A DNA stretch of 64,000 nt from Alphaproteobacteria bacterium (GTDB lineage Bacteria; Pseudomonadota; Alphaproteobacteria; Micropepsales; Micropepsaceae): the NCBI GenBank assembly GCA_947475445.1, contig CANJLC010000002.1, positions 62,001-126,000 of the forward strand, in the 5' to 3' direction. A program made the translations under genes and the position numbers. Positions 11,496 through 63,288 of the stretch are shown one piece after another; the stretch's first letter is position 1, and every line of letters starts with the position of its first letter. Under the pieces are notes generated by a model. The model did no database searches, was not told where the DNA came from, and saw only the letters and a list, made by a program, of their open reading frames with translations.

Positions 11496-11541
11496 CGGTT
11501 TTTGTCACGACACGTTTAAGGTTTTGACCTAGACTCCTGCC

Positions 11542-36082: not shown

Positions 36083-36142
36083 GCGTCTGAAGGTCAAGGC
36101 GAGAACGTGAGCCCCTGGCAGGATGCTCGTTGGCTGGAGTGG

Positions 36143-39714: not shown

Positions 39715-39722
39715 GCGCTAAA

Positions 39723-41766: not shown

Positions 41767-41938
41767 GGAGATTCATTTGGCCGCCAGCCTCCGGGATTGT
41801 CCGGCTATCACGGTGCAGTTATGCAGGGCTATCCACTAGCCCCCAGCCATGGTGTGGATATAGTGGTCCTCAGTATAGCGCAATCAGGCATGTTGAAAAT
41901 GGGTATAGAGGTCCGGGTTCATACAGGAAGCAATCTGC

Positions 41939-41944
41939 TATAAT
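41939..41944 (+). promoter_or_regulatory. Putative extended -10 of the manC promoter
   Basis: TGC-TATAAT is a consensus extended -10 element, 36 bases before the manC ATG. A GGTTCA 17 bases upstream is a poor -35. The 214-base gap also holds two copies of TATAGWGGTCC (41859 and 41904), 45 bases apart, of unknown meaning. Confidence 0.55.
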
Positions 41945-41980
41945 GTTTTTGTTGCGTTATTAATCGCATGAGGGGTTTGA

Positions 41981-47212: not shown

Positions 47213-48706
47213 ATGACCATCGCCGCATCCGTTGAAAGACCGCACCGGGGGGAATTCGCCCTACGGCCGGATTCATTTTGGCGGCGGCTGGCCATCATCC
47301 TGGCCCTGCTGGTTTCGGACGCGCTGTGTTTTGCGTTGGCCGACCTGCTGCTGCGCCTGGGACTGGGCAGCAATCTTCCTGCGCTGGCGCCGCTGCCCGG
47401 CGCCTCGCGCGTCGGCACGGCCCACATCATTGACCTGCTGGCGCTGATCGCCGTGGCCTTCGTGGCCGTGCGCTATCTGTTCGGCGACTATAGCCGCCGC
47501 CAGCTGTTCTGGGACAGCGCCCGTTCCACCACCGGCGCGCTTCTGGTCAGCGGCGCTGTTTATCTTGGCGCCGTGCTGATGCTGGAGCCGGGCGCGCTGC
47601 TGTTTTCCAGCGCCGTGTGGTTTGGCCTGATCTTCCTGCTGCCCACGGCGCGCCAGGGCATGCGGTATCTTTTGAGCCGGGCCGGGCTGTGGAATCTGCC
47701 CACCGCGCTCCTGGGCACCAGCCGGACCGCCCAGGAAGTCTATCCCACCCTGACCAAGCAATTGGCGCTGGGCCTGGATGTGCGCTGGATCGTTCCGGAA
47801 AACGCCGACAAGCATGTGCCGGGCGGGTTGTCCCACCTGAAGTCGCTGATCGCGCCGCCCGACGAGATCGCGCAGATGCTGGTTAATGCCGGCTGCCGCC
47901 AGGTCATCCTGGTGCCGGAGGATCATTTCCACGTCAACCAGACGCACCTGATAGACCAGCTTGTCGGCGCCGATATCCGCGTCGCCATCGTGCCGTCGCT
48001 GCGCCGGCTGCCGCTGTTCGGCCTTTCCACCAGCTATTTCTTCGGCAAGGACCTGCTGTTGATGCAGGTGCGCAACAACCTCGCCCGCCTGCCGCAGCGT
48101 TTCCTCAAACGCACGATTGACCTGGTGGGCACCATTGCTGCCGTGGTTCTGCTGTGGCCCGTGTTCATTCTCTTGGCGGTTTTGATCAGGATGGAAGATG
48201 GCGGGCCGGTATTTTTCCGCCAGCTGCGCGTGGGCCGCAATGGCCGCGATTTCGTCTGCTGGAAATTCCGCACCATGGTGGAGGATGCCGAGGAGCAGAT
48301 GGCGCGCTGGGAAAGCGAAGACCCGGTGCTGCTGGCGCGCTACCGCGAATCGAATTTCAAGCTCAGGGCCGATCCACGCGTCACCAAGGTGGGGAATTGG
48401 CTGCGCCGCACCAGCCTGGATGAGCTGCCGCAGGTGATTAATATCCTGCTGGGCGAGATGAGCATGGTGGGGCCGCGGCCGCTGCTGCGCCGCGAATTGC
48501 CCGATTACGGCGCCGTGATCACCCTGTATGAACGGGTGCGGCCCGGCGTGACCGGCCTGTGGCAGACCTCAGGCCGCAGCCACACCACCTTCGCGGAGCG
48601 CGTCTCCCACGACGAGTGGTACATCAAGAACTGGACGGTCTGGTACGACATCGTGATCCTGCTCCAGACCGTCTGGGTGCTGGCGGCGCGCAAGGGCGCC
48701 TATTGA
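47213..48706 (+). CDS. Undecaprenyl-phosphate sugar phosphotransferase (WbaP/WcaJ type)
   Basis: This enzyme starts a polysaccharide repeat unit by moving a hexose-1-phosphate from a nucleotide sugar to undecaprenyl phosphate. The 497-residue protein has four to five N-terminal membrane helices (about 25-160) and a central nucleotide-binding-like domain (about 165-290). The C-terminal polyprenyl glycosylphosphotransferase domain has [72 protein letters not shown] and [13 protein letters not shown]. Whether glucose-1-P or galactose-1-P is used cannot be told. Confidence 0.93.
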
Positions 48707-48779
48707 GAAAAGGCGGCGGCGCCAGGCTATCGCAATAACGGATAATGCATGTCGGCGGCTGCCGATTGGAGAGTATTTT

Positions 48780-49700
48780 ATGGCCTATCAAAATATCGCT
48801 GAAGCAGGGCAAGGTTCGCCGAAACCCGCTTTCAGCTATCACAGCCAGCTGGGCGAAGACAAAATCATCCACGGCTTTCTGGACCGCATGAGCATCGCGA
48901 ACGGCTATTTCGTCGAGTTCGGGGCCTGGGACGGCAAGTATATGAGCAACACCTATTTTCTTTACGAGCTGGGCTGGAGCGGTTGCTACATCGAAGGCGA
49001 TCCCAGACGCATGCATCAGCTTGAGAAGAATTGTCCCGATGCGCGTGCGCGCAAGGTTTGCGCCTTCGTCAGGACGGAGGGGGAATCTTCCCTGGACAAT
49101 ATTCTGACGGCAAATGGCGCGCCCGAAGTTGATCTGCTTTCCATAGATATCGACAGCGACGATTACGCGGTCTGGAAGTCTCTCAGCAAATTCCGGCCCC
49201 GGGTCGTAGTCATCGAGTATAATCCGTCCATTCCCTTCGACACGCAGTATGTCAATCCGCCGGGAGCCAACCACGGCAATTCCGCCCGGTCACTCGCCGA
49301 ACTGGGTGAAGCACGGGATTACAGCCTTGTCGCCGGAACGCTGTTCAATCTTATTTTTATCCCGCGTGAATTGGCCGAAAAGCACGGCATTCCGTCCGTC
49401 ACGCTGCAGAGCATTCGCGACGCCACCAACGCCGGACGTTATTTCTTCGCTTTTGATGGCACGCTGGTCCAGGCCGAAAATGGCCGCCACAATGATTCCT
49501 ATGGCGACCTGTTGATCGTTCCCTGGGCCGATTGTCCCGTACCGCAGCCGTTACCGCGCGGGCTTCGCCAGTTCCGCTCGGGGTGGGGGCCGGTACAGGT
49601 CTTGCGCGCCGGCTATGCCTTTTTCTGGTCTTTCCTGCGCTCTCCGGCCATCACCCTCAAATATCTGCGCAAAAGAGTGGCGCAGAAATTTTCGCGCTAG
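48780..49700 (+). CDS. FkbM-like SAM methyltransferase
   Basis: The 306-residue protein has a Rossmann core typical of FkbM-like methyltransferases near glycan genes: YHSQLGEDKIIHGFL near residue 20, GYFVEFGAWDGKYMSNTYFLYELGWSG, YIEGDPRRMHQL and a late VDLLSIDIDSDDYAVWKSL. A basic C-terminal tail ends the protein. It probably O-methylates a sugar; the acceptor is unknown. It follows the WbaP/WcaJ gene by 73 bases and precedes the tRNA gene. Confidence 0.78.
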   Translation: MAYQNIAEAGQGSPKPAFSYHSQLGEDKIIHGFLDRMSIANGYFVEFGAWDGKYMSNTYFLYELGWSGCYIEGDPRRMHQLEKNCPDARARKVCAFVRTEGESSLDNILTANGAPEVDLLSIDIDSDDYAVWKSLSKFRPRVVVIEYNPSIPFDTQYVNPPGANHGNSARSLAELGEARDYSLVAGTLFNLIFIPRELAEKHGIPSVTLQSIRDATNAGRYFFAFDGTLVQAENGRHNDSYGDLLIVPWADCPVPQPLPRGLRQFRSGWGPVQVLRAGYAFFWSFLRSPAITLKYLRKRVAQKFSR

Positions 49701-49855: not shown

Positions 49856-49930
49856 GAGCCCATAGCTCAGCGGTAGAGCATCTGACTTTTAATCAGAGGG
49901 CCGATGGTTCGACCCCATCTGGGCTCACCA
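49856..49930 (+). tRNA. tRNA-Lys (anticodon TTT), CCA encoded
   Basis: The 75-base sequence folds as a cloverleaf. The acceptor arms GAGCCCA and TGGGCTC pair fully. The D arm is GCTC/GAGC, the anticodon stem TCTGA/TCAGA carries loop CTTTTAA (anticodon TTT at 49888-49890), and the T arm contains GGTTCGACC. Discriminator A and CCA are encoded. No T-run terminator follows; the next CDS starts 43 bases on. Confidence 0.96.
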
Positions 49931-49973: not shown

Positions 49974-50633
49974 ATGGCGGGCGTCGTGAAAAGAACCATC
50001 AAGCAGAAGATCAAGGACAGTGTCCGCAATACGGGCTTGTGGCAGGGACTGTTGTTGCCGATCAAATCACGCCGCGACTTGAAGCGCTGGTTTGCCGCCG
50101 GCCGTCCCGCCCCCGTGCCGCATGCGGTCAAGGTTCGCAACATCCTTTGTCTGGCGGACCTGTTCGGCCTCGATGTCCTGGTGGAAACAGGAACCTTTGA
50201 AGGGGTGATGATCGACGCCACCCTGGCCCGCTTCCGGCAGATCTATTCGATCGAAATATTCGAGCCGTTGGCGATCAGGGCCAGGCGCCGCTTTGCCGCA
50301 AACGCGCAGGTGAATATCCTGTGCGGCGACAGCGCCGATCTTCTTCCGGGGTTGCTGGAAAAGCTTACAGAGCCCGTCCTGTTCTGGCTGGACGGCCATT
50401 TCAGCGGCGAAGGCACCGGAATTGGCGCCGAAGAATCGCCCATCCTGGCAGAAATCGCCCATATCCTGCGGCTGCGGTCTGCCTATGCCGATGTCATTAT
50501 TGTCGACGATACAACCTGCTTTACCTGCGGTGGCGGCTATCCGAAGCTGGACGACTTTGTTGAAAGCCTCAAGGCGCAGTTCGGACGAACCGTCCGAGTC
50601 GCGGATGACGCCATCTTCATCCTGCCTTACTGA
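49974..50633 (+). CDS. Putative SAM-dependent methyltransferase
   Basis: The 219-residue protein has a basic N-terminus (VKRTIKQKIKDSVRN) and then a Rossmann-type core: LVETGTFEGVMIDAT as SAM motif I near residue 70, YSIEIFEPLAIRARRRFA, NILCGDSADLLPGL, and PVLFWLDGHFSGEGTGIG. It ends with DVIIVDDTTCFTCGGGYPKLDDF. The order fits a class I methyltransferase of the small 'macrocin-type' group found in glycan clusters. It overlaps the convergent dehydrogenase gene by seven bases. Confidence 0.72.
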   Translation: MAGVVKRTIKQKIKDSVRNTGLWQGLLLPIKSRRDLKRWFAAGRPAPVPHAVKVRNILCLADLFGLDVLVETGTFEGVMIDATLARFRQIYSIEIFEPLAIRARRRFAANAQVNILCGDSADLLPGLLEKLTEPVLFWLDGHFSGEGTGIGAEESPILAEIAHILRLRSAYADVIIVDDTTCFTCGGGYPKLDDFVESLKAQFGRTVRVADDAIFILPY

Positions 50634-52330
50634 TTGCCCTCGAGCGACGCTTTTTTCAGCATGCTGGTGATCTGAAGAATTGTATCCGCGGAAAGGCCCG
50701 GATTCGGCATTGTTGTCCCGGGGGCGAAATCCTCCGGCGACGTCAGAAACGCCGCCAGGCTTTCCTCGTCCCAGACGCCGCCCTTTTTCCTCAGGCCCTC
50801 GGAATAGTTGGCGAAGGCCCCGCCGGCAATCTTGCGGCCGTAAACGCCGTTCAGGGTGGGCACGGTAAAGGAGGGGTTGCGGGCTGCCAGGGAATGGCAC
50901 TGCTTGCAGGCCGAGAAGATCACATCGTTATAGGCGTTGCGGGGATCGATATTGGGCTGTCCCGACCAGGCATAGTCGGTGTTCGGCGTCAGGAAGACCA
51001 GCGCGCCATCATCGGTCAGAAGAATGATCTGCCCCCTGGCATTGACCACATCCCGGATGCGGCGGCCGATCAGAATGCTTTCAGAGGAAATGACGTGGCC
51101 GTTCCTGATGCGCAGATGGATCAGCGACAGTCCCTTGAGCGATCCCACCAGGAAGTCGCCGTTCCACTTTTCGTCGAACGCCCTGACCTCGACGATCGAA
51201 GTTGGCGCGATTGAAGGAACCCAGGCAAAGACCGGATCAATCAATTTTCCGCGGTCCGGAATGGTGCCGGTCTTGGCCGTATCGATAAGCGTGGGCAGAA
51301 CGCTGAAGCCCGCCGCATATTTGCCGTCCTTCACGATCTCGCCGACGGGCCCCCTGCCGAACGGCCAGGCATATTGCGTTCCCCAGAAGATATAGGGCCA
51401 GCCATAATTGCCGCCTTCCACCATCAGATTTAGTTCGTCACCGCCGCGCTCGCCATTTTCCGTTTCCCAAAGCTCGCCCTTCGAACTGACGACCAGGCCT
51501 TCCGGTACGCGCAGCCCAATGCTCAGAACGGTCAATTTCCCCGAGGGCAGGTCGAGCTTGTAGCTCTTTCCGAGCATGGATGTTCTGTCCTGGGCGGCGG
51601 CATGGATGCCCAGATTGTTCAGATTATAGTCGCCCAGGGCGAAGAACAGCGTATCGCCCGCGAAGCTCATCTTGCCCCCGGCGGCGTGGCCGAAATAATA
51701 AGGCGGCTTCAGTTCCGCGCTCTTGAATACGGTTTGCCAGCCGCCAACCGGCACCGCGGTATCCTTCTGCAAAAGGATTTTCGAGATTTCAAAATGGGTG
51801 GCATCCGGGCCCGCGTCATAGACTTCGTAGCTGGCGTAAAGGTAGCCAGATTTCGCATGATAGCGGACATCATGGGAAATCAGCGTGGCGGGGTTCAGGG
51901 GGAATTTGGAATGCGCCACATATTCGCTGACATGCATGGGCAGGTCGGGAAAGGGCTTTGAATCAATGTTGCCGCCATCGTAAACCAGGAAGTGCCCCAG
52001 GCGGTCGAGTATGACGAGCTTGCCGCCGACCGCTTCAATGGCGCCCCCGTCGGTGGCGAATTTCTCCCGCCCGGCCAGAGGATCGGTGGTCATGATCAGG
52101 GACACGGCATTGCTCTGCACGATTTCCGAAGCGCCTTGCGACGCAACGGCCAGCGGAACAGGGTTGATCGGACCCTGCGCCGACACGACGCGGACGGGCG
52201 TTTCGTAGGTTCTGGCGGCAGCCACGATCAGCACGAAGCCCAGCGCTGCCATCAAAATCGATATCGGGAGACCGAGAATTCCGATGGCGGCGGTGAGTTT
52301 CGACAGACCGGCCAGATTTCGCGCCTTCAT
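50627..52330 (-). CDS. Membrane-anchored sugar dehydrogenase-cytochrome c fusion
   Basis: The 567-residue protein has one N-terminal membrane helix (about 10-40). A beta-propeller of the glucose/sorbosone dehydrogenase family follows (RVPEGLVVSSKGELWETENGERGGDELNLMVEGGNYGWPYI). A C-terminal cytochrome c domain carries the heme motif CKQCH near 470 and a likely axial Met in GTTMPNPG. Members are soluble PQQ-dependent sugar dehydrogenases; the fused heme would pass electrons to the respiratory chain in the periplasm. PQQ synthesis genes are not in the window. ATG 52330 is chosen because the hydrophobic anchor starts soon after. Confidence 0.85.
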   Translation of the reverse strand: MKARNLAGLSKLTAAIGILGLPISILMAALGFVLIVAAARTYETPVRVVSAQGPINPVPLAVASQGASEIVQSNAVSLIMTTDPLAGREKFATDGGAIEAVGGKLVILDRLGHFLVYDGGNIDSKPFPDLPMHVSEYVAHSKFPLNPATLISHDVRYHAKSGYLYASYEVYDAGPDATHFEISKILLQKDTAVPVGGWQTVFKSAELKPPYYFGHAAGGKMSFAGDTLFFALGDYNLNNLGIHAAAQDRTSMLGKSYKLDLPSGKLTVLSIGLRVPEGLVVSSKGELWETENGERGGDELNLMVEGGNYGWPYIFWGTQYAWPFGRGPVGEIVKDGKYAAGFSVLPTLIDTAKTGTIPDRGKLIDPVFAWVPSIAPTSIVEVRAFDEKWNGDFLVGSLKGLSLIHLRIRNGHVISSESILIGRRIRDVVNARGQIILLTDDGALVFLTPNTDYAWSGQPNIDPRNAYNDVIFSACKQCHSLAARNPSFTVPTLNGVYGRKIAGGAFANYSEGLRKKGGVWDEESLAAFLTSPEDFAPGTTMPNPGLSADTILQITSMLKKASLEGNQ

Positions 52331-52373
52331 GACAACCCCATGAGACCGCCAAGGCCGCCAAGCGGCAATGCGG

Positions 52374-53132
52374 TCAGTTCTTCGTGAATTCAAACATGCC
52401 GCAACCGAAGACTTCGTTTTCCACGACTTCGATTCCGCAATCGCGATGGAATTTCCTGTCATCCGTGACGCAGGAGAAGGAGACCAGCGGCAGGCCGACG
52501 GCTTCCACGATAGTATGGGGGGAGATGACGCGCTGGGCGTTGAACATCAGCCGTTCCTTGCCGCATGGCACGGCGAAATAAAGCCGGCCCCCGGGTTTCA
52601 CCACGCGCGCCAGGGATTTCATGAACTGGATGTGCCCGATGGGATTGACCGGGTCGCCATACCGCCCGAGGCCGAAATGCTCCGCGGCGTGGAGGCTGGA
52701 GATGGAATCGACGGAACCGTCCGCGTAGGGCGTCAGCGTGGTGCCGTCGGCGACCAGCGTGCTGAGCCCGTCTATCAGGCCTTCGGAAGGCCGCACGTCC
52801 ACGAGTTCGACGGACATGAAGGTCAGCAAATGGGAAACGAATCCCGAGATGGAAGATCCGATATCCACATGACGCTCGGGACGCCGCGCATAAATGCGGC
52901 GGGCCGCCCACAAGTCCATATAGAAATAGTGAGGGTCGAGATCGCCGTTGGAAACATAGCGCTCGTGCATGATCGGATACAGGGCCGTTATCGGCATTGC
53001 ACCCGGCACGCCCCTGGCGCGCCGCTTGTAGTCGCGCAAGTCCCGCAGGAAGGCGGGGATGCCGCGCAGCGAGCGCACGGTCTTGCGCGGGTCAAACCCG
53101 AGCTGAATCAGGACATGATAGAGAAGTCTCAC
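52374..53132 (-). CDS. DUF268 family methyltransferase-like protein
   Basis: The 252-residue protein fits the DUF268 pattern: YFYMDLWAARRIYARRPERHVDIGSSISGF near residue 70, then SISSLHAAEHFGLGRYGDPVNPIGH, VVKPGGRLYFAVPCGKERLMFNAQRVI and a closing VVENEVFGCGMFEF. VDIGSSISGF stands where SAM motif I is expected, so a methyltransferase fold is likely, although activity has not been shown for the family to my knowledge. It is placed 43 bases before the dehydrogenase and 65 after the CgeB-like gene in the same direction. Confidence 0.8.
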   Translation of the reverse strand: MRLLYHVLIQLGFDPRKTVRSLRGIPAFLRDLRDYKRRARGVPGAMPITALYPIMHERYVSNGDLDPHYFYMDLWAARRIYARRPERHVDIGSSISGFVSHLLTFMSVELVDVRPSEGLIDGLSTLVADGTTLTPYADGSVDSISSLHAAEHFGLGRYGDPVNPIGHIQFMKSLARVVKPGGRLYFAVPCGKERLMFNAQRVISPHTIVEAVGLPLVSFSCVTDDRKFHRDCGIEVVENEVFGCGMFEFTKN

Positions 53133-53197: not shown

Positions 53198-54214
53198 TCA
53201 CTGGCGGCCAGGCAGGGCCGCTTCCAGAACAGCCCTGAAGCGGTGTTCATAGGTGTGTTCGCGGCAGGCTCTCTCATGGGCCTTCTGCGCCATCGCGCAC
53301 CGTTCCTGCGGGTGCGCAAGATAGTAGCGTATCTGCGCGGCGCATTGCTCGGGGCTGTTGAAGATCGCGATCTCCTTGCCGATGTCGAAATAATGCTCCA
53401 GGCCGGGCGCGTAGTGGCTCAGTTCGAATCCGCCTGCCAGGGGAATTTCGAAATTGCGCGCCTTCATCTGCTCGACCCGTTTCTTGCTGCGCAGAAAGCG
53501 TGCGGCATTCATGGGATGGGCGAAGATGAATCCGATATCGTTCTGCACGCTGTTCGACAAATTGAGGTTGATGCGCGAGGACTGGAAAAAGCTGCTGAGC
53601 TTTTCGGCGGGCAGTGGGCCGTTGGGCCAGCCATGCCCATAACACTCTACTTTGATGCCTTCCTTTTGAAGGCGGCCCACGTACCAGTTGCGCACTTCGT
53701 TGCGGATGCCGACAAAGGATATGTTGGAACGAAAGCTGCCGTCGGGCGGCAGCGCGTCATGCGCCCCCAGCTTCGGATCGGCCGCCCATTGGGAAAGAAT
53801 GGCCTTGGCGCCGAGCCGCGCATATTTGTCCAGGGCCCAGGGATCGGTGGTGGCGCAAAAGGAAAAGTGCCGGGCGTATCGGCGCGTATAGCTTTCAAAG
53901 CGCCACTGGTCGTCGCCGAACCAGGCGATGGTGGTGGCGCGCGTCTTCAGCCGATCCAGGAATTCGGGACGGAACTGGTCCTTGTAGGTGGTGAAGAAAA
54001 TCACATCGGGCGCATAGTCGGCGACCGTCCGTTCCAGCTCCTGTTCTATCCGGGCGGGATCGTCCAGGAATTCGTCATACCAGAAGGGTTTGGCTTCGCG
54101 GCAGATACTGGCCATGGGATCGAAAAAGGCGGATCTTTCGCCGCTTTCGCCGCTTTCTTTCTTGCCATAGCCCCATTGCATCAGCACGGCCAGGAGGCGG
54201 ATATCCATGGTCAT
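53198..54214 (-). CDS. CgeB-like glycosyltransferase
   Basis: The 338-residue GT-B protein opens MDIRLLAVLMQWGYGK and carries DVIFFTTYKDQF and TIAWFGDDQWRFE. A C-terminal nucleotide-sugar domain (about 165-335) has NISFVGIRNEVRNWYVGRL, IRTNL-like INLNLSNSVQ, MKARNFEIPLAGGFEL and the tail pattern QKAHERACREHTYEHRF. This is the CgeB/DUF3880 layout found in spore-coat and O-antigen clusters. The sugar and linkage are unknown. It starts 11 bases after rfbH, so it may add the 3,6-dideoxyhexose made by rfbFGH. That is inference from position. Confidence 0.82.
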   Translation of the reverse strand: MTMDIRLLAVLMQWGYGKKESGESGERSAFFDPMASICREAKPFWYDEFLDDPARIEQELERTVADYAPDVIFFTTYKDQFRPEFLDRLKTRATTIAWFGDDQWRFESYTRRYARHFSFCATTDPWALDKYARLGAKAILSQWAADPKLGAHDALPPDGSFRSNISFVGIRNEVRNWYVGRLQKEGIKVECYGHGWPNGPLPAEKLSSFFQSSRINLNLSNSVQNDIGFIFAHPMNAARFLRSKKRVEQMKARNFEIPLAGGFELSHYAPGLEHYFDIGKEIAIFNSPEQCAAQIRYYLAHPQERCAMAQKAHERACREHTYEHRFRAVLEAALPGRQ

Positions 54215-54225
54215 GCCATCAACTC

Positions 54226-55596
54226 CTAGCGCCGGCAGAAAGCGGTGATCTGCTCTATGGCGTAGTTCAGGTGATCTTCTCTGAGGCCCGGATAGAGGCC
54301 AATCCAGAACGTGGAGGTCATCACTGTATCGCTGTTGGTCATCTCGCCCACCACGCGGTATTCGCGGCCCTTCATGTAGGGCTGGCGCAGCAGATTGCCG
54401 CCGAACAGGAGGCGGGTGTGGACGTTCTTTTCATTCAGGTACTGGACCAGCTCGTCACGGCTGAAGGGCGCGCCCGGGCGCACGGTGATGGGAAAGCCGA
54501 ACCAGCTGGGTTCGGACTTGGGCGTGGCTTCGGGAAGGATGAGGAATTCCTCCACGGCCTTGAGGCCCTTTTTCAGGAACGCGAAATTGTGCCGGCGCGC
54601 GGCGATGAAGCCTTCCAGCCGGTCCATCTGGGCCAGGCCGACAGCGGCCTGCATGTCGGTGATCTTCAGGTTATAGCCCAGGTTGGAATAGGTATATTTG
54701 TGGTCATAACCCTTGGGCAAATCGCCCAGCTTCCACTGGAAGCGCTTGTTGCAGGTATTGTCCACGCCCGGCGGGCAATAGCAGTCGCGGCCCCAGTCGC
54801 GCACCGATTCCAAAGCGCGCTTGAGCAATCCGTCATTGGTGAAGACCGCCCCGCCTTCGCCCATGGTGATGTGATGGGCCGGATAGAAGCTGACCGTACC
54901 GACATCGCCGAAGGTGCCGATCATCTTGCCGTCATAGGTGGCACCCAAGGCATCGCAACTGTCTTCCACCACCCACAGGTCGTGCTTCTTGGCGAGGTCC
55001 ATCACCACGTCCAGCGCAAAGGGATTGCCCAGCGTATGGGCCACCATGATGGCCTTGGTCTTGGGGCTGATCGCGGCCTCGATCATGTCGGGGCGGATAT
55101 TGTAGGTGGGAATGTCCACATCCACGAACACCGGCATCATGCCGTTCTGGATGGCCGGGTTCAGCGTGGTGGGAAAGCCGGTGGCGCAGGTGATGACTTC
55201 GTCGCCGGGCATCAGGCGCTGCTTGCCCAGCAGCGGCGAGGTCAGCGCGCTCATCGCCACCAGGTTGGCGGAGGAACCCGAATTGACGGTCAGCGCGAAA
55301 CGCAGGCCCAAATAGGCGGCCAGCCGCGCCTCGAAGGCGTCGTTGAAACGGCCCGTGGTCAGCCAGAAATCCAGCGAGGAATCCACCAGGCTGCGCAGTT
55401 CCGGCGCGCCATAGACCTTGCCCGACACCGGCACCACGGGCTTGTCCGCCACGAATTCGCGCGGGCCATGGGCGAGGGCGGCGTATTTCTCGGTCAATTC
55501 CAGGATCTGGGCGCGCAGCGCGGCGGCTTCGCTGGTCTCGGGCTTGGCCTTGCCGGTGGGCGTCTTGGCGTCGTCGGGCTTGGTGTCGGTCGTCAC
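54226..55596 (-). CDS. rfbH: CDP-4-keto-6-deoxyglucose 3-dehydratase (RfbH/E1)
   Basis: RfbH is a PMP-dependent, iron-sulfur dehydratase that removes the C3 hydroxyl on the way to CDP-4-keto-3,6-dideoxyglucose. The 456-residue DegT-fold protein has His in place of the usual PLP-Lys ([16 protein letters not shown], His241/242), the hallmark of E1. Its cysteines C213, C272, C274 and C282 reproduce the [2Fe-2S] spacing. A 45-residue charged N-terminal lead precedes the fold. GTG 55596 overlaps rfbG as GTGA. The reductase partner RfbI is not seen in this window. Confidence 0.95.
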
Positions 55597-56672
55597 GCGC
55601 TTACTCTCCTGGAAGCTGGCGCACCAGCCAGATGTTCGTCAATCTGCTTGAGGGTGAAGGCGCGCATGTCGGCGCCTTCGGCATAGGCCTTGTACCAGGC
55701 CATGGTCTGGCCGACGCCGTCTTCAAAACCCCAGCGCGGCTGCCAGCCCAGTTTGGTGTGGGCCTTGGTGGAATCCAGCTTCAGCAGCGTGGCTTCATGC
55801 ACGGCATTGGGATCGGGCTGGATCGAGAGCGCGTCCGGCGTGCCCCACAATTTCACGATCAAATTGGCGAGGGTGCCGACGCTTTGTTCGCTGTCCTTGC
55901 CGGGGCCGAAATTCCAGCCTTCCCATTTGGTGGGACCGGACGCCAGCAGCGCTTCGGCCACCTTCAAGTAGCCGGACAGGGGCTCCAGCACATGCTGCCA
56001 GGGGCGGATGGCGTCGGGACGGCGGATGATGATTTTTTCGCCCGCGATCAGGCCGCGCGCCAGGTCGCAGACAATGCGGTCCTTGGCCCAGTCGCCGCCG
56101 CCGATCACGTTGCCGGCGCGCACCGATGTCAGCGAACCGTGATTGCCGGCGTCGAAATAGGAACGGCCATAGGCGGCGGTAACCAGCTCGGCACAGCCCT
56201 TGGAACTGGAATAGGGATCATGCCCGCCCATGGCGTCGCCTTCGCGATAGGGCGTCATGGCCTCACGGTTCTCGTAAGCTTTGTCCGATGTGATCACGAG
56301 CGTGGCTTTCACGCCGGGCGTCTGTTTGACGGCTTCCAGCACATGCACCGTGCCCATGACGTTGACGTCATAGGTCTCCACCGGGATCTTGTAGGAATCG
56401 CGCACCAGCGGCTGGGCCGCCATGTGCAGCACGACATCGGGCTTGAAGGTGGTCATTGCCGCGTTCAGCTTCGCCACGTCGCGGATATCGCCGATATGGT
56501 GTTCAATGCCCTCGGCCACGCGGGCGATGGTGAACAGGTTGGGATCGGTGGGCGGCGTCAGGGCATAGCCGCTGACCTTCGCTCCCAGCCGCGCCAGCAG
56601 CAGCGTCATCCAGGAACCCTTGAAGCCGGTATGTCCTGTCAGGAAAACGCGTTTGCCGTTCCAGATACTCAT
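55593..56672 (-). CDS. rfbG: CDP-glucose 4,6-dehydratase
   Basis: RfbG turns CDP-glucose into CDP-4-keto-6-deoxyglucose with tightly bound NAD. The 359-residue extended SDR has [24 protein letters not shown] near residue 7, [12 protein letters not shown], the catalytic [12 protein letters not shown] near 158, and [22 protein letters not shown] and [14 protein letters not shown], all typical of this enzyme. ATG 56672 overlaps the rfbF stop as ATGA, so the longer ORF in the track is not used. Second gene of rfbF-rfbG-rfbH. Confidence 0.96.
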
Positions 56673-57445
56673 TTCTTCCAGACCTGCCACGGCGCCTTGC
56701 CGGAGGCCCATAATTCTTCCAGGTGGTTTTTGTCGCGCAGCGTGTCCATCGCCTGCCAGAAGCCGGGATGTTCGAAGGCCTGCAACTGGCCTTCCGCGGC
56801 CAGGCGTTCCATCGGCTCTTTTTCCCACAGGGTGGAATCGCCGGCGACGTAATCCAGCACCTTGGGCGAGAGCACGAAGAAGCCGCCATTGATCAGGCCG
56901 CCTTCGCTGATGGGCTTTTCCTCGAAGCGCTCGACGCGCGAACCGTCCATAACCAGCGCGCCGAAGCGGGCGATGGGGCGCACGGCGGTGACGGTGGAAA
57001 GCTTGCCATGGGATTTGTGGAAGGCGATCAGCTTGCCGACATCGACATCGGCCACGCCGTCGCCATAGGTCAGGCAGAAGGCTTCGTCGTTGCCGATATA
57101 ATCGCGCACCCGCTTGAGGCGGCCGCCGGTCATGGTGCTGTCGCCAGTTTCAACCAGCGTGACTTTCCAGGGGTCGGCGTAGGTCTGGTGCACCGTGAGG
57201 TCGTTCTTCGCCACATCGATGGTGACGTCGGAGGTGTGCAGCTTGTAGTGGAAGAAATATTCCTTGATCTTGTAGCCCTTGTAGCCAAGGCAAACGATGA
57301 AATCGTTGATCCCGTAATGGGAGTAGATCTTCATGATGTGCCACAGGATCGGGCGGCCGCCGACCTCGACCATGGGCTTGGGCTTGGTCTCGGTTTCTTC
57401 GCTGAGGCGCGAGCCGAGCCCGCCTGCCAGAATGACTGCCTTCAT
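56669..57445 (-). CDS. rfbF: Glucose-1-phosphate cytidylyltransferase
   Basis: RfbF makes CDP-glucose from CTP and glucose-1-phosphate. The 258-residue protein begins with the nucleotide-binding motif MKAVILAGGLGSRLSEETETKPKPM. It carries GGRPILWHIMKIYSHYGINDF and FLTYGDGVADVD-like CLTYGDGVADVDVGKL, with the metal-binding Asp, and FEEKPISEGGLINGGFFVLSP. It is the first gene of the overlapping rfbFGH operon. The 131-base gap upstream separates it from the HAD gene; a TTGACC is present there but no convincing -10. Confidence 0.97.
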   Translation of the reverse strand: MKAVILAGGLGSRLSEETETKPKPMVEVGGRPILWHIMKIYSHYGINDFIVCLGYKGYKIKEYFFHYKLHTSDVTIDVAKNDLTVHQTYADPWKVTLVETGDSTMTGGRLKRVRDYIGNDEAFCLTYGDGVADVDVGKLIAFHKSHGKLSTVTAVRPIARFGALVMDGSRVERFEEKPISEGGLINGGFFVLSPKVLDYVAGDSTLWEKEPMERLAAEGQLQAFEHPGFWQAMDTLRDKNHLEELWASGKAPWQVWKK

Positions 57446-57576
57446 GGAAATATCCGCCTGAACCCCGGTTTTGGGGTGTCTTTTGGCAATAGGAGCATGA
57501 GCCGGTCAAGGCGGCCGCCCCCGGGCCTTGCCTGTTTGGCCAGCCTATCGGGTCCGCCGCACAAAATGAAGCTTTT

Positions 57577-58254
57577 TTAGCCTTTTAGCGTGCGCAAGAG
57601 GGCCGGCAGCCCCGCCAGCCCATCCAGCCGCACCTGGTGGGGGATGCCCTCCAGGGGCACGGTGGCATAGCCATAGGTGGCCAGGATGAAAGGCAGGCCT
57701 GCCCGCGCGGCCGCCTCTCCATCCACTTCGCTGTCCCCGACATAGACCGCCATGGCGGCAGGCACGCCCATTTTTTCCAGGGCCAGGTGCAGGGGATCAG
57801 GATAGGGCTTGGCCCGCGCCGTGGCGTCGCCGCCCACCACCGCCGCGAACAGGGGCGCCAGACCAAGGTCCGAGAGGAGGTTTTCGGTCAGCCCTTGGGG
57901 CTTGTTGGTGCAGATTCCCAGCGCCAGGCCGGAGGCGTAAAGCTGTTCCAGCATCGCCCTGGCGCCGGGGTAGAGATCGGCGGGATCAGCAGGCAGCACG
58001 GCGTAGACGGTGCGGAAATCGCCCAGGTCGCGCTCCGGCGTGGTGGCGTGGTCGCCGAAGGCGGCGGCCACCAGTTCGGCGGCGCCTCGGCTGACCAGGC
58101 TGCGGACTTTCTGTTCCGTGACGGCGATACCGCCGCGTGCTGCGATCACCTGGTTGAGGGCTTGGGCGATGGCGGGCGCGCTGTCGATCAGGGTGCCGTC
58201 CAGGTCGAAAAGGACGCCGGAGATTTTCGTGAGGCTGCTCAACGCGGCCGGCAC
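57577..58254 (-). CDS. HAD-family phosphatase (Gph-like)
   Basis: The 225-residue HAD hydrolase has motif 1 LFDLDGTLIDSAPAI near residue 15, a helical cap (about 28-90), motif 2 ICTNKP, motif 3 Lys in ARAKPYPDPL and motif 4 YVGDSEVDGEAAARAG. The sequence is close to phosphoglycolate phosphatases. In this setting it could instead remove phosphate from a sugar phosphate in nucleotide-sugar synthesis. GTG 58254 lies 16 bases inside the FkbM gene. A TTG six codons later is another possible start. Confidence 0.85.
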   Translation of the reverse strand: MPAALSSLTKISGVLFDLDGTLIDSAPAIAQALNQVIAARGGIAVTEQKVRSLVSRGAAELVAAAFGDHATTPERDLGDFRTVYAVLPADPADLYPGARAMLEQLYASGLALGICTNKPQGLTENLLSDLGLAPLFAAVVGGDATARAKPYPDPLHLALEKMGVPAAMAVYVGDSEVDGEAAARAGLPFILATYGYATVPLEGIPHQVRLDGLAGLPALLRTLKG

Positions 58255-59126
58255 AGCAGCAGCGGGAAGGCGTGTTCGGAGCTTTGCACCACGGGCGTGG
58301 CGCTATAGTCCTGCGCTTCCATGAAGGCCTGGATCTTGTCCATGCCTTCGCCATGCACTTCGATCATCAGCGCGGGACGGTAACGGGCGAGGAAGGGGCC
58401 CAAGGTCGGCACCACTTTATGTTCCGAACCCTCGACATCCATTTTCACGAAGTCCACCCGCTGCAAATTCATGCGCGCCGCCAGGTCGCCCAGGCTGGCG
58501 ACCTTGATGGTGGTGCCATCGCCCAGCCAGTCGCCGGCCTTGATTTCCACGATATAGGAACCCATCGAGCCGTCCGACGCGAAGCGGATGGTGGTGGACT
58601 TGTCCCAGGCGCCTTCCTGCAGCGCCGTGACATTGGCAAGGCCGTGGCGTTCCACATTCCTGGAAAGGGAATCGAAATTCTGCGGGTCCGGCTCCAGGGA
58701 AATCACCCGGCCTGCGGGTCCGACGGCGCGGGAAAATGCCAGCGTCGCCAGGCCGCAATTGGCGCCCAGGTCGAATACCACATCGCCCTCCTTCAGCCGC
58801 GCGGCGTCCAGATACATCGGATTGATGGACTCGCCCTCCGTAACGGAGGTGAAAAAGAAGTCTTCACCCGAGCCGGACAAATGGTGCCAGGCCGGGGTGG
58901 AATAATCCACCACCTGGTCGGTGCCGTTTTGCACCGGCCGCACCGCGCTGAAATAGATGTCGAATTCGGTGATGATGTCAGGATGGGTGAAGGCGTGATT
59001 TTTCTTCACGATCAGCACCGTGTTGCCACGGCGAAACGCCACGGCGCCGCCGCGATGCGTCATGGCGGCGGTCAGCCCGGCCGCCTGGGCGGAAGCCTGC
59101 AATCGCTTGAGCCGCACCCTGTCCAT
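58239..59126 (-). CDS. FkbM-family SAM methyltransferase
   Basis: The 295-residue protein has the FkbM core: DVVFDLGANCGLATLAFSRAVGP as SAM motif I near residue 115, VISLEPDPQNFDSLSRNVERHG, and the family-defining DFVKMDVEGSEHKVV near 225. An N-terminal domain of about 100 residues precedes it. FkbM enzymes O-methylate sugars or polyketides. The frame stays open for 20 codons above ATG 59126 without a normal start, so ATG is used. It follows the ThDP enzyme by 61 bases in the same direction. Confidence 0.88.
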   Translation of the reverse strand: MDRVRLKRLQASAQAAGLTAAMTHRGGAVAFRRGNTVLIVKKNHAFTHPDIITEFDIYFSAVRPVQNGTDQVVDYSTPAWHHLSGSGEDFFFTSVTEGESINPMYLDAARLKEGDVVFDLGANCGLATLAFSRAVGPAGRVISLEPDPQNFDSLSRNVERHGLANVTALQEGAWDKSTTIRFASDGSMGSYIVEIKAGDWLGDGTTIKVASLGDLAARMNLQRVDFVKMDVEGSEHKVVPTLGPFLARYRPALMIEVHGEGMDKIQAFMEAQDYSATPVVQSSEHAFPLLLCRPR

Positions 59127-59187
59127 CAGCGCGACGCCGCCGGGCAGCGCATTGAGAAGGGCTTTAAGGGGGTGCTGGATCAGGGGA

Positions 59188-61032
59188 TCAATCCTTGACC
59201 AGGGGGATCAGCATGTTGGCCGCCAGTTCCTCGCGCGACAGGAAGGGCGCCATGTCTTCCAGGGGCGAGGTGACCATGCGGCCGTCATCCAGGCGGCGCG
59301 AGGCCAGCTTGGGCGCGAATTGCTGGGACTTGTCGATCATCACTTCGCAGATCTGCGGGCCGGGAGAGGACAGCGTGTCCTTGATGGCCTGCTCCATGTC
59401 GTCATGGCTGGAGGTGCGGCGCACGCCGAAGCCCAGCACTTCGCCCAGCTTGAGGAAGTCGGGGAAGGTGACGCCGCTTTCGGGGCCGCAGCCCACCACA
59501 TTGTCCGGGAAATAATTCTGCTGTGTCTGGCGGATGGAGTGATAGCCGGAATTGTTGGTCAGGAAAATCTTCATGGGGATTTTCTCGCCGACGATCGTCT
59601 GCAGTTCCTGCAGGTTCATCATGACGCTGCCGTCGCCGGCAAAACAGATGATGCGTTTTGCCTTTGTGTTGGCATACCAGGCGCCGATGGCGGCGGGCAG
59701 GTCGTAGCCCATCGAGGCGCAGCCGGAGTTGGAGAACAGGCGCTGGCCCTGCTTGATCTGGGCGGTCTGGAACGTCACCACGCAGGCAGTGGCGTCGCCG
59801 GTGACGACGACATCGTCCTTGTCCAGATGCTTCCACACGGTCTCGGCGAAACAATAGGGATTGACCACGCCCTTGGTGTCCCAATATTCCGGCAGGACGG
59901 TGGGGAATTTGGCGACGCGCTCGCGGCACCACGCCAAATACTCTTTTTGCGCTGCGGAGGGCTTGTAGCTCTTCGCTTCCTCTTTCAGCACGGTGAGGAA
60001 GGCCTTGAGTTCGGCATGCACCGGCAGGGCCAGGTGCAGGGTGGGCTTTTCCAGTTCAGCCCGGTCAATGTCCACCATTGCCACCTTGGAAGCGCGGGCG
60101 AAGCTGTCCCAGTTGTAGCTGATCTGGCGGATATTCAGCCGGCAGCCCAAGACCAGCAGGAAGTCGGAATTTTGCACCGCGAAATTGCCGGCGCGGTCGC
60201 CAACCGTGCCAGGCTTGCCGGCATAGAGGGGATTGTCATTGGCCAGCACGTCATGGGCGTTGAAGGCGGTGGCCACCGGCACACCCAGCTGGTTCGCAAC
60301 ATCCAGGAACAGGTCGGCGGCGCCGGCGATGCGCACGCCGGTGCCCGGCAGGATGCAAGGGCTCTTTGATGCGGCCAGCATGTCCAGCACCTTGCGGGCG
60401 GCGTCGCGCAATCCGTCGCCGGTCAGCGCCTTGGTCTCCGTGGGCGTCGCAGCTTCGATGTCGGCGGCATGCTTGATGGGATCAAAGCCTTCCAGCGTGG
60501 TCTCGTCGATATTGCTGCCCTGCACGTCGATCGGCACATCGATCCAGACCGGACCGGGACGGCCATTGACCGACAACCAGAAGGCTTTCTCGATCTCGTA
60601 GCGGATGCGCTTGGGGTCCTGAACGATCACGGCGTATTTGGTGATGCCCCCCACCATGCGCACGATATCGACTTCCTGGTCGCCCAGCTGGCGCAGGCCG
60701 ATGGGGAAATTGTTGGCGATGGTTTCGCGCCGCGCCTGGCCGGACACCACCACCATGGGGATCGAGTCGGTATAGGCGCCGAACACGCCGTTCAGGGCGT
60801 TGATGCCGCCTGGGCCGCTGGTGACGTTGAGCACGGCGGGGCGGCCCAGCAGGCGGGCATAGCCTTCCGCCGCGATGGCGCAGGACTGTTCATGGTGGCA
60901 GCAGACATAGGTGAGCCCCTTGGTGCGCCCGAACGCGTCATTCAGGTGCATGGCGCCGCCGCCTGTTACCAGAAAGACATGCGTGATCCCAAGCCGCGCC
61001 AGGGACTGGGCGATATAGTCGGCCACCCGCAT
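59188..61032 (-). CDS. ThDP-dependent acetolactate synthase-like enzyme
   Basis: The 614-residue protein has three ThDP-enzyme domains. The catalytic Glu is in CCHHEQSCAIAAEGYAR (Glu48), and a central Rossmann-like domain covers about 205-340. The cofactor motif is FAGDGSVMMNLQELQTIVGEKIPMKIFLTNNSGY. It resembles acetolactate synthase large subunits, but there is no small subunit or ilvC nearby. It sits between nucleotide-sugar genes, downstream of a NeuB gene by 32 bases. A YerE-type role, adding a two-carbon unit from pyruvate to CDP-4-keto-3,6-dideoxyglucose, is a reasoned alternative to amino-acid synthesis. Confidence 0.85.
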   Translation of the reverse strand: MRVADYIAQSLARLGITHVFLVTGGGAMHLNDAFGRTKGLTYVCCHHEQSCAIAAEGYARLLGRPAVLNVTSGPGGINALNGVFGAYTDSIPMVVVSGQARRETIANNFPIGLRQLGDQEVDIVRMVGGITKYAVIVQDPKRIRYEIEKAFWLSVNGRPGPVWIDVPIDVQGSNIDETTLEGFDPIKHAADIEAATPTETKALTGDGLRDAARKVLDMLAASKSPCILPGTGVRIAGAADLFLDVANQLGVPVATAFNAHDVLANDNPLYAGKPGTVGDRAGNFAVQNSDFLLVLGCRLNIRQISYNWDSFARASKVAMVDIDRAELEKPTLHLALPVHAELKAFLTVLKEEAKSYKPSAAQKEYLAWCRERVAKFPTVLPEYWDTKGVVNPYCFAETVWKHLDKDDVVVTGDATACVVTFQTAQIKQGQRLFSNSGCASMGYDLPAAIGAWYANTKAKRIICFAGDGSVMMNLQELQTIVGEKIPMKIFLTNNSGYHSIRQTQQNYFPDNVVGCGPESGVTFPDFLKLGEVLGFGVRRTSSHDDMEQAIKDTLSSPGPQICEVMIDKSQQFAPKLASRRLDDGRMVTSPLEDMAPFLSREELAANMLIPLVKD

Positions 61033-61064
61033 TGTGAAGTTACCCCAATATTAGAAAGCCGCGC

Positions 61065-62192
61065 TCAGTTCTTGGAGACGAGACGTGGCGAGTTTGAATC
61101 CAGCGGAATCGGATCGACGCCACGCGCATCAATCAGCTTCTGCAGGTCGGAATTGGACGAATAGGGGCTGTCAATCTCGCGCAGATGGACCGGCGCATCC
61201 TTCTTGATGGGCGAACGGATCACTTCGCCGCGCATCAGTTCGCGGCAGGAGATCTGGCCCTTGAGCAACGGGATGGCGAGATAGACATCCTTGTCGCCCA
61301 GCACATGGCCGGCCGGGAGGTCGGACTTGGCATAGACGCCGCGCACCAGCTGGTCGAGATATTCCACTTCGCGCTTCGGCGGGATGCGCTTGGCGGTGCC
61401 CGGCGCGCCGCACATTTCCTGCGCCTTCTTGAAGGCCTTGAACCACTGGTCAGCCTGTTCGGGCAGGGTGCAATAGGACGAGACCGGCACGCCTTCGTAA
61501 TCAATGTCGATATGACGCTCAAAGGTGCGCGCACCCTTGGCATAGGCGATCATTATCGACTCGTTCCAGCTGGTCATCTCGTGGGTCGAGAAGCCGATCA
61601 CATTGTCGGGATAGCGGTTGTGCAGGAAATCGATCTGGTTGATTTCAATTTCGCTGTCTTCCGAGGGGTAGAGCGAAACGCAATGGTTGAGCGCGAAGGG
61701 AATGTTGCGCTTGTTGAAGAAGCTGATCAGGTCGTCCATGTCGCGCAGGGAGGAGCCGCCGGTGGAGGCGATCACCGGCTTGCCGGTAGAGGCCATCTTT
61801 TCGATTAGCACCCAGTCGCGGATGTCGGAGCTGGCGATCTTGAGGATCTGCACGCCGAATTCGACGCATTTGTCGACTGAGGTTTCGTCGAAGGGCGTCG
61901 CCATGGTGATCATGCCATTGGTGCGCACGGCGTCATTGAGGGTGCGCAGCTGTTCCCAGGTCATGTGGGTAGCCAGGGTCTTCTTGATGTAGCGCACATC
62001 CTCGCGATTGCGATGGTCCTTGTGCACGAAGCTGTCGACGTCGCGGAACTGCAGCTTGATGGCGGCGCGCACATTGTTGAAGCGCACCACCTTGGCGAAA
62101 TCATTGACGATCTTCAGGCCGCGCTCGAGCTTGCCCCAGTGATTGTTGGCGAGTTCCAGGACGAACAGGTCTTCAAAAATCGGCGAGCGCAT
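61065..62192 (-). CDS. NeuB-family sialic acid synthase-like protein with SAF domain
   Basis: NeuB enzymes condense phosphoenolpyruvate with an amino sugar (such as ManNAc) to make nonulosonic acids. The 375-residue protein has the TIM-barrel domain (LFVLELANNHWGKLERGLKIV near residue 9; KLQFRDVDSF; IASTGGSSLRDMDDLI; HCVSLYPSEDSEIEI; GFSTHEMTSWN; FERHIDIDYEGVP). A C-terminal SAF/antifreeze domain (about 285-345) has VYAKSDLPAGHVLGDKDV. The usual partners NeuC (epimerase) and NeuA (CMP transferase) are not in the window. A good promoter lies upstream; the ThDP gene follows 32 bases after. Confidence 0.88.
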   Translation of the reverse strand: MRSPIFEDLFVLELANNHWGKLERGLKIVNDFAKVVRFNNVRAAIKLQFRDVDSFVHKDHRNREDVRYIKKTLATHMTWEQLRTLNDAVRTNGMITMATPFDETSVDKCVEFGVQILKIASSDIRDWVLIEKMASTGKPVIASTGGSSLRDMDDLISFFNKRNIPFALNHCVSLYPSEDSEIEINQIDFLHNRYPDNVIGFSTHEMTSWNESIMIAYAKGARTFERHIDIDYEGVPVSSYCTLPEQADQWFKAFKKAQEMCGAPGTAKRIPPKREVEYLDQLVRGVYAKSDLPAGHVLGDKDVYLAIPLLKGQISCRELMRGEVIRSPIKKDAPVHLREIDSPYSSNSDLQKLIDARGVDPIPLDSNSPRLVSKN

Positions 62193-62204
62193 CGGGCCTC
62201 ATGA

Positions 62205-62221
62205 GGGAACCTCAGGTTCCC
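62205..62221. repeat. 17-base palindrome in the NeuB leader
   Basis: GGGAACCT-C-AGGTTCCC lies between the putative NeuB promoter and its ATG. It would form an 8-base hairpin in the leader RNA or serve as a protein site. It resembles the hairpin at 7075-7097. Confidence 0.6.
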
Positions 62222-62247
62222 GCTGGGTTGTTGCTTTGGAGGAAATC

Positions 62248-62276
62248 TTATTATCAGGGGGTTTCAGGATTCACAA
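62248..62276 (-). promoter_or_regulatory. Putative promoter of the NeuB-ThDP operon
   Basis: On the minus strand TTGTGA, 17 bases, TAATAA, placing the start of transcription near 62241, about 49 bases before the NeuB ATG. Confidence 0.55.
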
Positions 62277-62283
62277 GTGTGAA
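62270..62283. promoter_or_regulatory. Operator-like palindrome over the NeuB -35
   Basis: TTCACA-AG-TGTGAA is a perfect 6+6 dyad covering the TTGTGA -35 element, between the divergent NeuB and SDR genes. Its protein partner is unknown. Confidence 0.45.
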
Positions 62284-62361
62284 CTGTGGTAACATCCCTG
62301 GCTTTTCCCCAGACTTTCCCCGCTTTTGGCGGTTTTTTGCGCCCATGGTAGAGAGCCGGTA

Positions 62362-63288
62362 ATGGCCCATCTGGATGATTGCAATTTCGTGGTGACGGGT
62401 GCTACCGGATGGCTGGGCAGGGCCAGCTTGGGCGCGCTGGAAGCGCGGCTGGGCGACGCCTTTGCAGCGCGCGTTTTCGCCTATGCCACCAAGGATGGAC
62501 AGACCAGCCTGCAATCGGGCCGGATTGTGCGGTACGGCGCTCTGAATGCGATCAGCGAACTGCCGCCGGCGCGCTATGCGGTGCTGCATTGCGCCTTTCT
62601 GGGCAAGGAGCGCGTCGCGGATATGCCGCTCGGCGATTACGTGCAGTTGAACGCGGCGATTTCCGAGCAAGTCTGTGACGCCGCCCGCAGGATAAAGGCG
62701 CAGGCCTTGTTCGTGCCTTCGTCGGGCGCGGTTTATGCGAAAGACCGTATGCTGGAAACGGACATCGGCAAAAATCCCTATGGCGTTATGAAGCTGAAGG
62801 ATGAGGCACGGTTCACCCGCCTGGCGGAGGAATTGCAATGCCCCTTGCTGGTGGCGCGGGTCTTCAATGTCGCGGGGCCTTACATGAACAAGACCACGTC
62901 CTATGCGCTAGGCTCCATCCTGGAGGATGTGGCCCACCATCGCCCGGTACGGATCCGGGCGGCGCAGCGCATCATCCGGTCCTACAGCCATGTCATGGAC
63001 CTGATGGAGCTGGTGCTGGCCATGCTGGACGAGGGTGCCGCCAATCCGGTGTGGTTCGACACGGCGGGCGAGCGGGAAATCGAAGTTGGAGAGCTGGCGC
63101 GCCTGGTGCTGGATCTGCTGGGACACAAGGCGGGCGCGATTGAGCGCCCCGCACTTGATTCCACACTGCCGGACAATCGCTATGTGGGCGACGGCACAGC
63201 GATGCGGATGCTTGCAGCGCGGCACGACATCACCCTGCGGCCGCTGTCGGCGCAGATCGCGGACACGGCATCCTTCCTGGCAGGCTGA
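62362..63288 (+). CDS. Extended SDR, NAD-dependent sugar epimerase/reductase-like
   Basis: The 308-residue protein has the cofactor motif NFVVTGATGWLGRASL near residue 8, a central FVPSSGAVYAKD with catalytic Ser, and YGVMKLKDE with the Tyr-x3-Lys pair. The substrate-binding half has LLVARVFNVAGPY and IIRSYSHVMDLMELVLAML. The pattern fits sugar-nucleotide reductases such as CDP-abequose/paratose synthase or YerF as well as epimerases; sequence alone does not choose. Because rfbFGH needs a closing C4 reductase, this is the natural candidate in the window. ATG 62362 is used over the longer track ORF. Confidence 0.82.
   Translation: MAHLDDCNFVVTGATGWLGRASLGALEARLGDAFAARVFAYATKDGQTSLQSGRIVRYGALNAISELPPARYAVLHCAFLGKERVADMPLGDYVQLNAAISEQVCDAARRIKAQALFVPSSGAVYAKDRMLETDIGKNPYGVMKLKDEARFTRLAEELQCPLLVARVFNVAGPYMNKTTSYALGSILEDVAHHRPVRIRAAQRIIRSYSHVMDLMELVLAMLDEGAANPVWFDTAGEREIEVGELARLVLDLLGHKAGAIERPALDSTLPDNRYVGDGTAMRMLAARHDITLRPLSAQIADTASFLAG

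Follow-up and report, generated by a model that had tools for sequence, protein, structure and literature searches.

A YerE-like carboligase operon with a NeuB-family gene: a proposed donor synthase for a long-branched 3,6-dideoxyhexose

In the yersiniose pathway, the thiamine diphosphate (ThDP) enzyme YerE places a two-carbon unit from pyruvate on cytidine diphosphate (CDP)-4-keto-3,6-dideoxyglucose and YerF, a short-chain dehydrogenase/reductase (SDR), reduces the branch. Related enzymes take other donors: ErwE works with 4-hydroxy-2-oxo acids, its preferred donors, rather than with pyruvate, and 4-hydroxy-2-oxovalerate is among the donors taken by JanthE (PMC12247030, PMC12188165). A longer branch of this kind is found in caryophyllose, which is 3,6-dideoxy-4-C-[1,3,4,5-tetrahydroxyhexyl]hexopyranose (PMC5706390). 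According to the same papers, more than 200 YerE-like enzymes are predicted, and for most of them the structure of the sugar has yet to be established, as have the physiological substrates of JanthE (PMC12247030, PMC12188165). Here we describe an operon in contig CANJLC010000002.1 of an alphaproteobacterium, of which a stretch of 64,000 nucleotides was analyzed (the window; all coordinates are window positions), in which the gene for a YerE-like protein follows that for a NeuB-family protein. A preliminary description of this DNA had suggested a pathway to a C4-branched 3,6-dideoxyhexose of the yersiniose type; two genes of the operon, encoding the NeuB-family protein (61065–62192) and a haloacid dehalogenase (HAD) phosphatase (57577–58254), were absent from it.

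We consider that the probable product of the operon is a CDP-activated 3,6-dideoxyhexose that bears a long branch at C4 and is destined for a surface glycan. The balance of the evidence also tilts, by a little, towards the view that the NeuB-family enzyme has been recruited as the 2-keto-3-deoxy-acid donor-maker for the carboligase, as one of three interchangeable modules (NeuB, HpcH-type and HMGL-type) that set the C4 branch in many phyla and on viral contigs. The proposal starts from what the sequences themselves display, namely the family memberships, the YerE-like grouping of the ThDP protein, a swap of donor genes among related loci, and a NeuB-family protein with its phosphoenolpyruvate (PEP) site kept and its acceptor site changed. 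The genes concerned are the following:

61065–62192, minus strand: NeuB-family PEP-dependent synthase of 375 amino acids with a SAF domain, the proposed donor synthase (PF03102, 1.6e-38; PF08666)
59188–61032, minus strand: YerE-like ThDP carboligase of 614 amino acids, Glu48 and GDG 466–468 intact (nearest solved structure 8rph, 1.3e-116)
57577–58254, minus strand: HAD phosphatase, phosphoglycolate-phosphatase-like (PF13419, 1e-34; TIGR01449 above its cut-off)
56669–57445, minus strand: RfbF, glucose-1-phosphate cytidylyltransferase (TIGR02623, 438.7 bits; cut-off 300)
55593–56672, minus strand: RfbG, CDP-glucose 4,6-dehydratase (TIGR02622, 473 bits; cut-off 278; GHTGFKG and YSSSK motifs)
54226–55596, minus strand: RfbH, CDP-4-keto-6-deoxyglucose 3-dehydrase, E1 (PRK15407, 730 bits; cut-off 423)
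62362–63288, plus strand, divergent: extended SDR, candidate branch-ketone reductase in the YerF role (Epimerase PF01370, 3.8e-19; GATGWLG and YGVMK motifs)

Between the NeuB-family gene and the ThDP gene, which follows it in the same orientation, lie 32 bp. NeuB enzymes couple PEP to an aldehyde, and we therefore examined whether this juxtaposition could be due to chance by surveying the 80 best ThDP-related loci of the genome collection (the nearest matches, from many phyla), in which neighbors were counted with profiles built from recurring neighbor genes and with thresholds set within the analysis. A NeuB of the window type was found at 27 loci, an HpcH/HpaI-type aldolase at 31 and an HMGL-type protein resembling 4-hydroxy-2-oxovalerate aldolase at six, and at no locus did two of them occur together. 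Flanks of 8.5 kb or more on each side were available for 41 loci, of which 38 possessed exactly one donor gene. The mutual exclusion of NeuB and HpcH over the 80 loci gave a Fisher p=3e-8, a test that ignores kinship; mapped onto the ThDP tree, NeuB requires 11 changes, of which branches with good support force seven, and HpcH requires 13, of which they force nine. The exchange takes place within a single slot, as evidenced by the order RfbF-G-H-NeuB-ThDP-HAD-SDR in Sphingobium (L043) and RfbF-G-H-HpcH-ThDP-HAD-SDR in Novosphingobium (L048), and a second swap was observed between ThDP-SDR-cyclase-NeuB (L044, L077) and ThDP-SDR-cyclase-HpcH (L063, L070). Cultured relatives with the NeuB set are Sphingobium chungbukense DJ77, Rhodoblastus acidophilus DSM 142 and Sandarakinorhabdus limnophila DSM 17366. 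The products of all three donor families are 4-hydroxy-2-oxo (2-keto-3-deoxy) acids.

The same pairing extends to viruses. Eighty viral contigs carrying a ThDP gene (L118–L197) included 26 with NeuB, 12 with HpcH and none with both, and at least 580 candidate stretches with YerE-like ThDP enzymes were confirmed on IMG/VR viral contigs, often together with an RfbH-like protein and either NeuB or HpcH. In a sample of Pseudomonadota drawn around the window's own genome, a ThDP homolog was present in 11 of the 13 genomes with a NeuB homolog and in 9 of the 386 others (p=1e-14); the pair was adjacent in eight of these 11, and in the other three the two genes lay on separate contigs of fragmented assemblies.

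A variant set was observed at L068 (Bradyrhizobium canariense BTA-1), L075, L063 and L044, where a short SDR is added together with a sugar phosphate cyclase related to AroB (TIGR04425), in some cases without RfbH nearby. Such sets could make carbocyclic branched sugars; one candidate is bradyrhizose, for which the responsible genes were reportedly not known (PMC4743980). Bradyrhizose was dropped for the window itself, which holds no AroB-like cyclase.

The nearest solved relatives of the ThDP protein were 8rph (1.3e-116) followed by structures of acetohydroxyacid synthase (AHAS) at approximately 6e-66. We take 8rph to be JanthE and 5ahk to be PpYerE; identity to the former was 36% over 561 columns and to the latter 27.5%. 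The JanthE entry is given as 8rpj (PMC12188165), which has the same sequence as 8rph. A tree built from 99 proteins placed the ThDP protein with JanthE, and PpYerE further out, while AHAS and the genome's IlvB-like protein fell on the opposite side (SH-aLRT 99). PpYerE lies outside the clade that bears the donor genes, although its exact place is unsure because of its long branch (1.51). The alignment of the same 99 proteins revealed the catalytic Glu48 as conserved in 98 rows, with one gap, and the ThDP-binding motif is G466-D467-G468 in the window protein. At position 118, the window protein and nearly all loci with donor genes have Asp, in place of the Phe of AHAS and PpYerE and of Val121 in JanthE, a residue belonging to the active site (PMC12188165). 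Asp118 may be suited to a hydroxylated donor. These data support membership of the ThDP protein in the YerE-like, ketone-accepting carboligases, with carboligation itself as the predicted activity; a search of the plasmid collection returned no relative of it.

The nearest solved structure to the NeuB-family protein was 3g8r (35% identity), and identity to SiaC was 25%. It retains Glu25, Lys53, Gln55, Thr110, Lys129, Ser132, Ser154, Tyr186, Ser213, His215 and His236 (NmeNANAS numbers), among which Lys53, Ser132, Ser154 and His236 have PEP and metal roles in NeuB. Within the acceptor site, Arg314 is replaced by Ile, Asn74 by Arg, Asn184 by Ser and Phe288 by Gln. The residues are those listed for the N. 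meningitidis enzyme, in which Arg314 positions the N-acetyl group (PMC6795526). A hint as to the acceptor is provided by L022, a congener whose operon is almost identical and in which NeuB is fused (11463–13019) to a cupin resembling D-lyxose isomerase (2y0o, 5.9e-7; the Pfam isomerase match was slightly below its cut-off), which suggests that the aldehyde could be an aldose derived from a ketose. The NeuB part of this fusion matches 3g8r of Chromobacterium violaceum at 6.5e-113, and long NeuB reading frames of 500–550 amino acids were seen in several Pseudomonadota genomes. The HAD gene similarly hints at a phosphorylated intermediate; a gene of this type lies close to 23 of the 80 related ThDP genes, and its product may dephosphorylate the donor or the product.

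As the preliminary description had stated, rfbF, rfbG and rfbH are present, and each passes the cut-off of its curated family. The start of RfbG is probably ATG 56672, giving a 4-bp overlap with the rfbF stop. RfbH displays C214-X57-C272-X1-C274-X7-C282, the cysteine motif of a [2Fe-2S] cluster, and has exchanged the lysine that binds pyridoxal 5'-phosphate for His; both features are hallmarks of E1 3-dehydrases. Most viral RfbH-like proteins retain the His without the exact C-X57-C-X1-C-X7-C spacing, which was found in only three of 58. The SDR, whose start is probably ATG 62362 rather than 62326, has homologs in the sphingomonad relatives and in L022.

From these components we infer the substrates, the order of the steps and the product as follows. 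RfbF, RfbG and RfbH would supply CDP-4-keto-3,6-dideoxyglucose as the acceptor; the NeuB-family protein would join PEP to an aldehyde that is perhaps a sugar phosphate, giving a 2-keto-3-deoxy acid, and the HAD protein could remove a phosphate. The ThDP protein would decarboxylate the 2-keto-3-deoxy acid and attach the resulting acyl anion at the ketone of C4, yielding a tertiary alcohol with a side chain that is 1'-keto, 2'-deoxy and hydroxylated, after which the SDR would reduce the 1'-ketone. The end product would be nearer to caryophyllose or erwiniose than to yersiniose. This mechanism is suggested by the donor families yielding 4-hydroxy-2-oxo acids together with the donor range of ErwE and JanthE and the 2'-deoxy carbon of caryophyllose, which is what C3 of a 2-keto-3-deoxy acid would become once the acid had been decarboxylated, its remainder transferred and the ketone reduced.

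Several observations weigh against the proposal. In the class sample, where the link was weaker, five of the 10 NeuB matches came from genomes without a ThDP homolog, all at 37–42% identity. No donor gene was seen at 16 of the 80 loci, 13 of which were ended early by contig ends, and L023, the near relative of JanthE, has neither a NeuB nor an aldolase gene. RfbF, RfbG and RfbH were found within 9 kb at only 41 of the 80 related loci (30 of the 41 with full flanks). Lastly, RfbH usually works with an E3 protein that has the FAD_binding_6 domain (PF00970), and no such protein was found in this 98.4%-complete genome; electron donors other than an E3 of that type are possible, and the finding concerns a partner gene rather than RfbH.

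Other explanations of the operon have to be considered. That it makes yersiniose proper, with the two-carbon unit of pyruvate as donor, the SDR in the YerF role and NeuB serving some other purpose, would agree with the presence of RfbF, RfbG, RfbH, a YerE-like enzyme and an SDR, and with the fact that JanthE also takes pyruvate (PMC12188165). We nonetheless regard it as unlikely: the ThDP gene pairs exclusively with either NeuB or an aldolase, the two exchange within one slot, PpYerE is positioned outside the donor-gene clade, and Asp is found where AHAS and PpYerE carry Phe and JanthE carries Val. A donor limited to pyruvate leaves the one-partner pairing at 38 of 41 loci, as well as the longer or hydroxylated donors of ErwE and JanthE, unexplained. 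Of the preliminary description, the YerE-like reading of the ThDP protein is supported, and RfbF, RfbG and RfbH with the SDR agree with the C4 branching put forward there; yersiniose as such is not supported, a longer branch being more likely. It is very doubtful, too, that the ThDP step comes first and that NeuB or the aldolase then extends the short unit already added with a three-carbon keto acid to form an acidic branch. Gene pairing would be identical in that case, and the present data do not fix the step order; against it, a branch aldehyde would be required for which no enzyme was seen, the branches of caryophyllose and erwiniose contain no carboxyl group, and the 4-hydroxy-2-oxo acid itself is the donor of ErwE (PMC12247030).

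Alternatively, the operon may serve two separate sugars, with NeuB leading to a nonulosonic (sialic-acid-like) acid and the ThDP enzyme to a sugar of the yersiniose type. Several sugar pathways often share one glycan operon, and among named NCBIfam families NeuB and PseI come closest to the NeuB-family protein, yet the scores were 116 and 108 bits against equivalog cut-offs of 340 and 400. A search of the genome for a cytidine monophosphate (CMP)-nonulosonate synthetase returned only KdsB and one weak partial match, and the genome has no second NeuB. With no CMP-sugar synthetase but KdsB and with the acceptor residues lost, including the Arg314 required for N-acetyl recognition (PMC6795526), a sialic-acid-like pathway was set aside as unlikely; that an aldolase can take the slot of NeuB, and that NeuB and ThDP genes are adjacent across phyla, likewise makes the two-sugar explanation quite improbable. 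Finally, the ThDP protein could be a stray acetolactate synthase (an IlvB isozyme) or another decarboxylase, as its best named families are AHAS large subunits. It scored 326 bits against the AHAS large-subunit model, however, where the cut-off is 538, and the tree that the preliminary description had called for, with IlvB and YerE included, separated it from the AHAS/IlvB side, contrary to the grouping with IlvB that this description had named as its main refuting result. The sole other ThDP match of the genome is the IlvB-like protein, on another contig and at 27–29% identity, and the operon contains no gene for an AHAS small subunit, as had been noted. The IlvB isozyme was ruled out by the tree and the family cut-offs, and the wider suggestion is hardly conceivable.

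The remaining members of the gene run are the following:

58239–59126, minus strand: FkbM-family methyltransferase (PF05050, 4e-18; TIGR01444)
53198–54214, minus strand: CgeB-like glycosyltransferase, a candidate for placing the sugar, 11 bp after rfbH (Glyco_trans_1_2 PF13524, 5.9e-30)
52374–53132, minus strand: putative methyltransferase (DUF268/Methyltransf_11, domain match), last gene of the run

On the minus strand, from 62192 down to 52374, the order is thus NeuB-family, ThDP, FkbM methyltransferase, HAD, RfbF, RfbG, RfbH, CgeB-like and methyltransferase, with intergenic gaps of 32, 61, -16, 131, -4, -4, 11 and 65 bp; such spacing (-16 to 131 bp) fits an operon. The FkbM-like gene occupies the same position in L022, and the ThDP, SDR and CgeB-like genes were all present as previously described. 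Directly downstream on the same strand, 50627–52462 encodes a glucose/sorbosone-dehydrogenase-like protein (PF07995). A tRNA-Lys(ttt) gene (49856–49930) lies between sugar-transferase genes (47213–49700) and the operon. Further away, at 36001–42000, the G+C content is approximately 0.55 in surroundings of 0.63–0.65; this stretch, encoding a polysaccharide deacetylase, a family 2 glycosyltransferase and a possible membrane protein, is likely a transferred surface-glycan block.

What is new here is the proposal of a NeuB-family enzyme as donor-maker for a ThDP carboligase; our search of open-licence papers yielded nothing linking NeuB to YerE-like enzymes, including the ErwE and MMAR_2332 systems. 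The donor-gene swap offers a simple rule by which the donor can be predicted from the neighboring gene, and it provides a proposed function for 3g8r, a solved NeuB structure with a tentative name only. It also points to a large set of unrecognized branched surface sugars and to new pairs of enzymes forming C–C bonds.

Compared with NeuB/SiaC and with 3g8r ('probable spore coat polysaccharide biosynthesis protein E'), the window NeuB shares the barrel, the SAF domain and the PEP/metal residues; it differs from NeuB/SiaC in its replaced acceptor residues and in being without a CMP-sugar synthetase partner. The YerE/YerF system of Yersinia pseudotuberculosis (PpYerE, 5ahk) has in common with the window the genes for CDP-4-keto-3,6-dideoxyglucose, a ThDP carboligase and a candidate SDR, whereas the window operon has NeuB and HAD genes in addition and its donor is predicted to be longer than pyruvate. 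JanthE of Janthinobacterium sp. HH01 (8rph) is the nearest solved ThDP relative, and its active-site Tyr297 and Lys567 are kept in the window protein; the differences are a CDG motif where the window protein has GDG, Val121 for Asp118 and Pro293 for Arg302. The CDG motif is rare; it was also observed in a second ThDP relative in the window's genus, at L023, near RfbF, RfbG and RfbH. By their published description, ErwE (erwiniose) and MMAR_2332 (caryophyllose) come close to the window system in being YerE-like enzymes that use longer, hydroxylated 2-oxo acids, and the caryophyllose branch is 2'-deoxy, as that of the window sugar is predicted to be.

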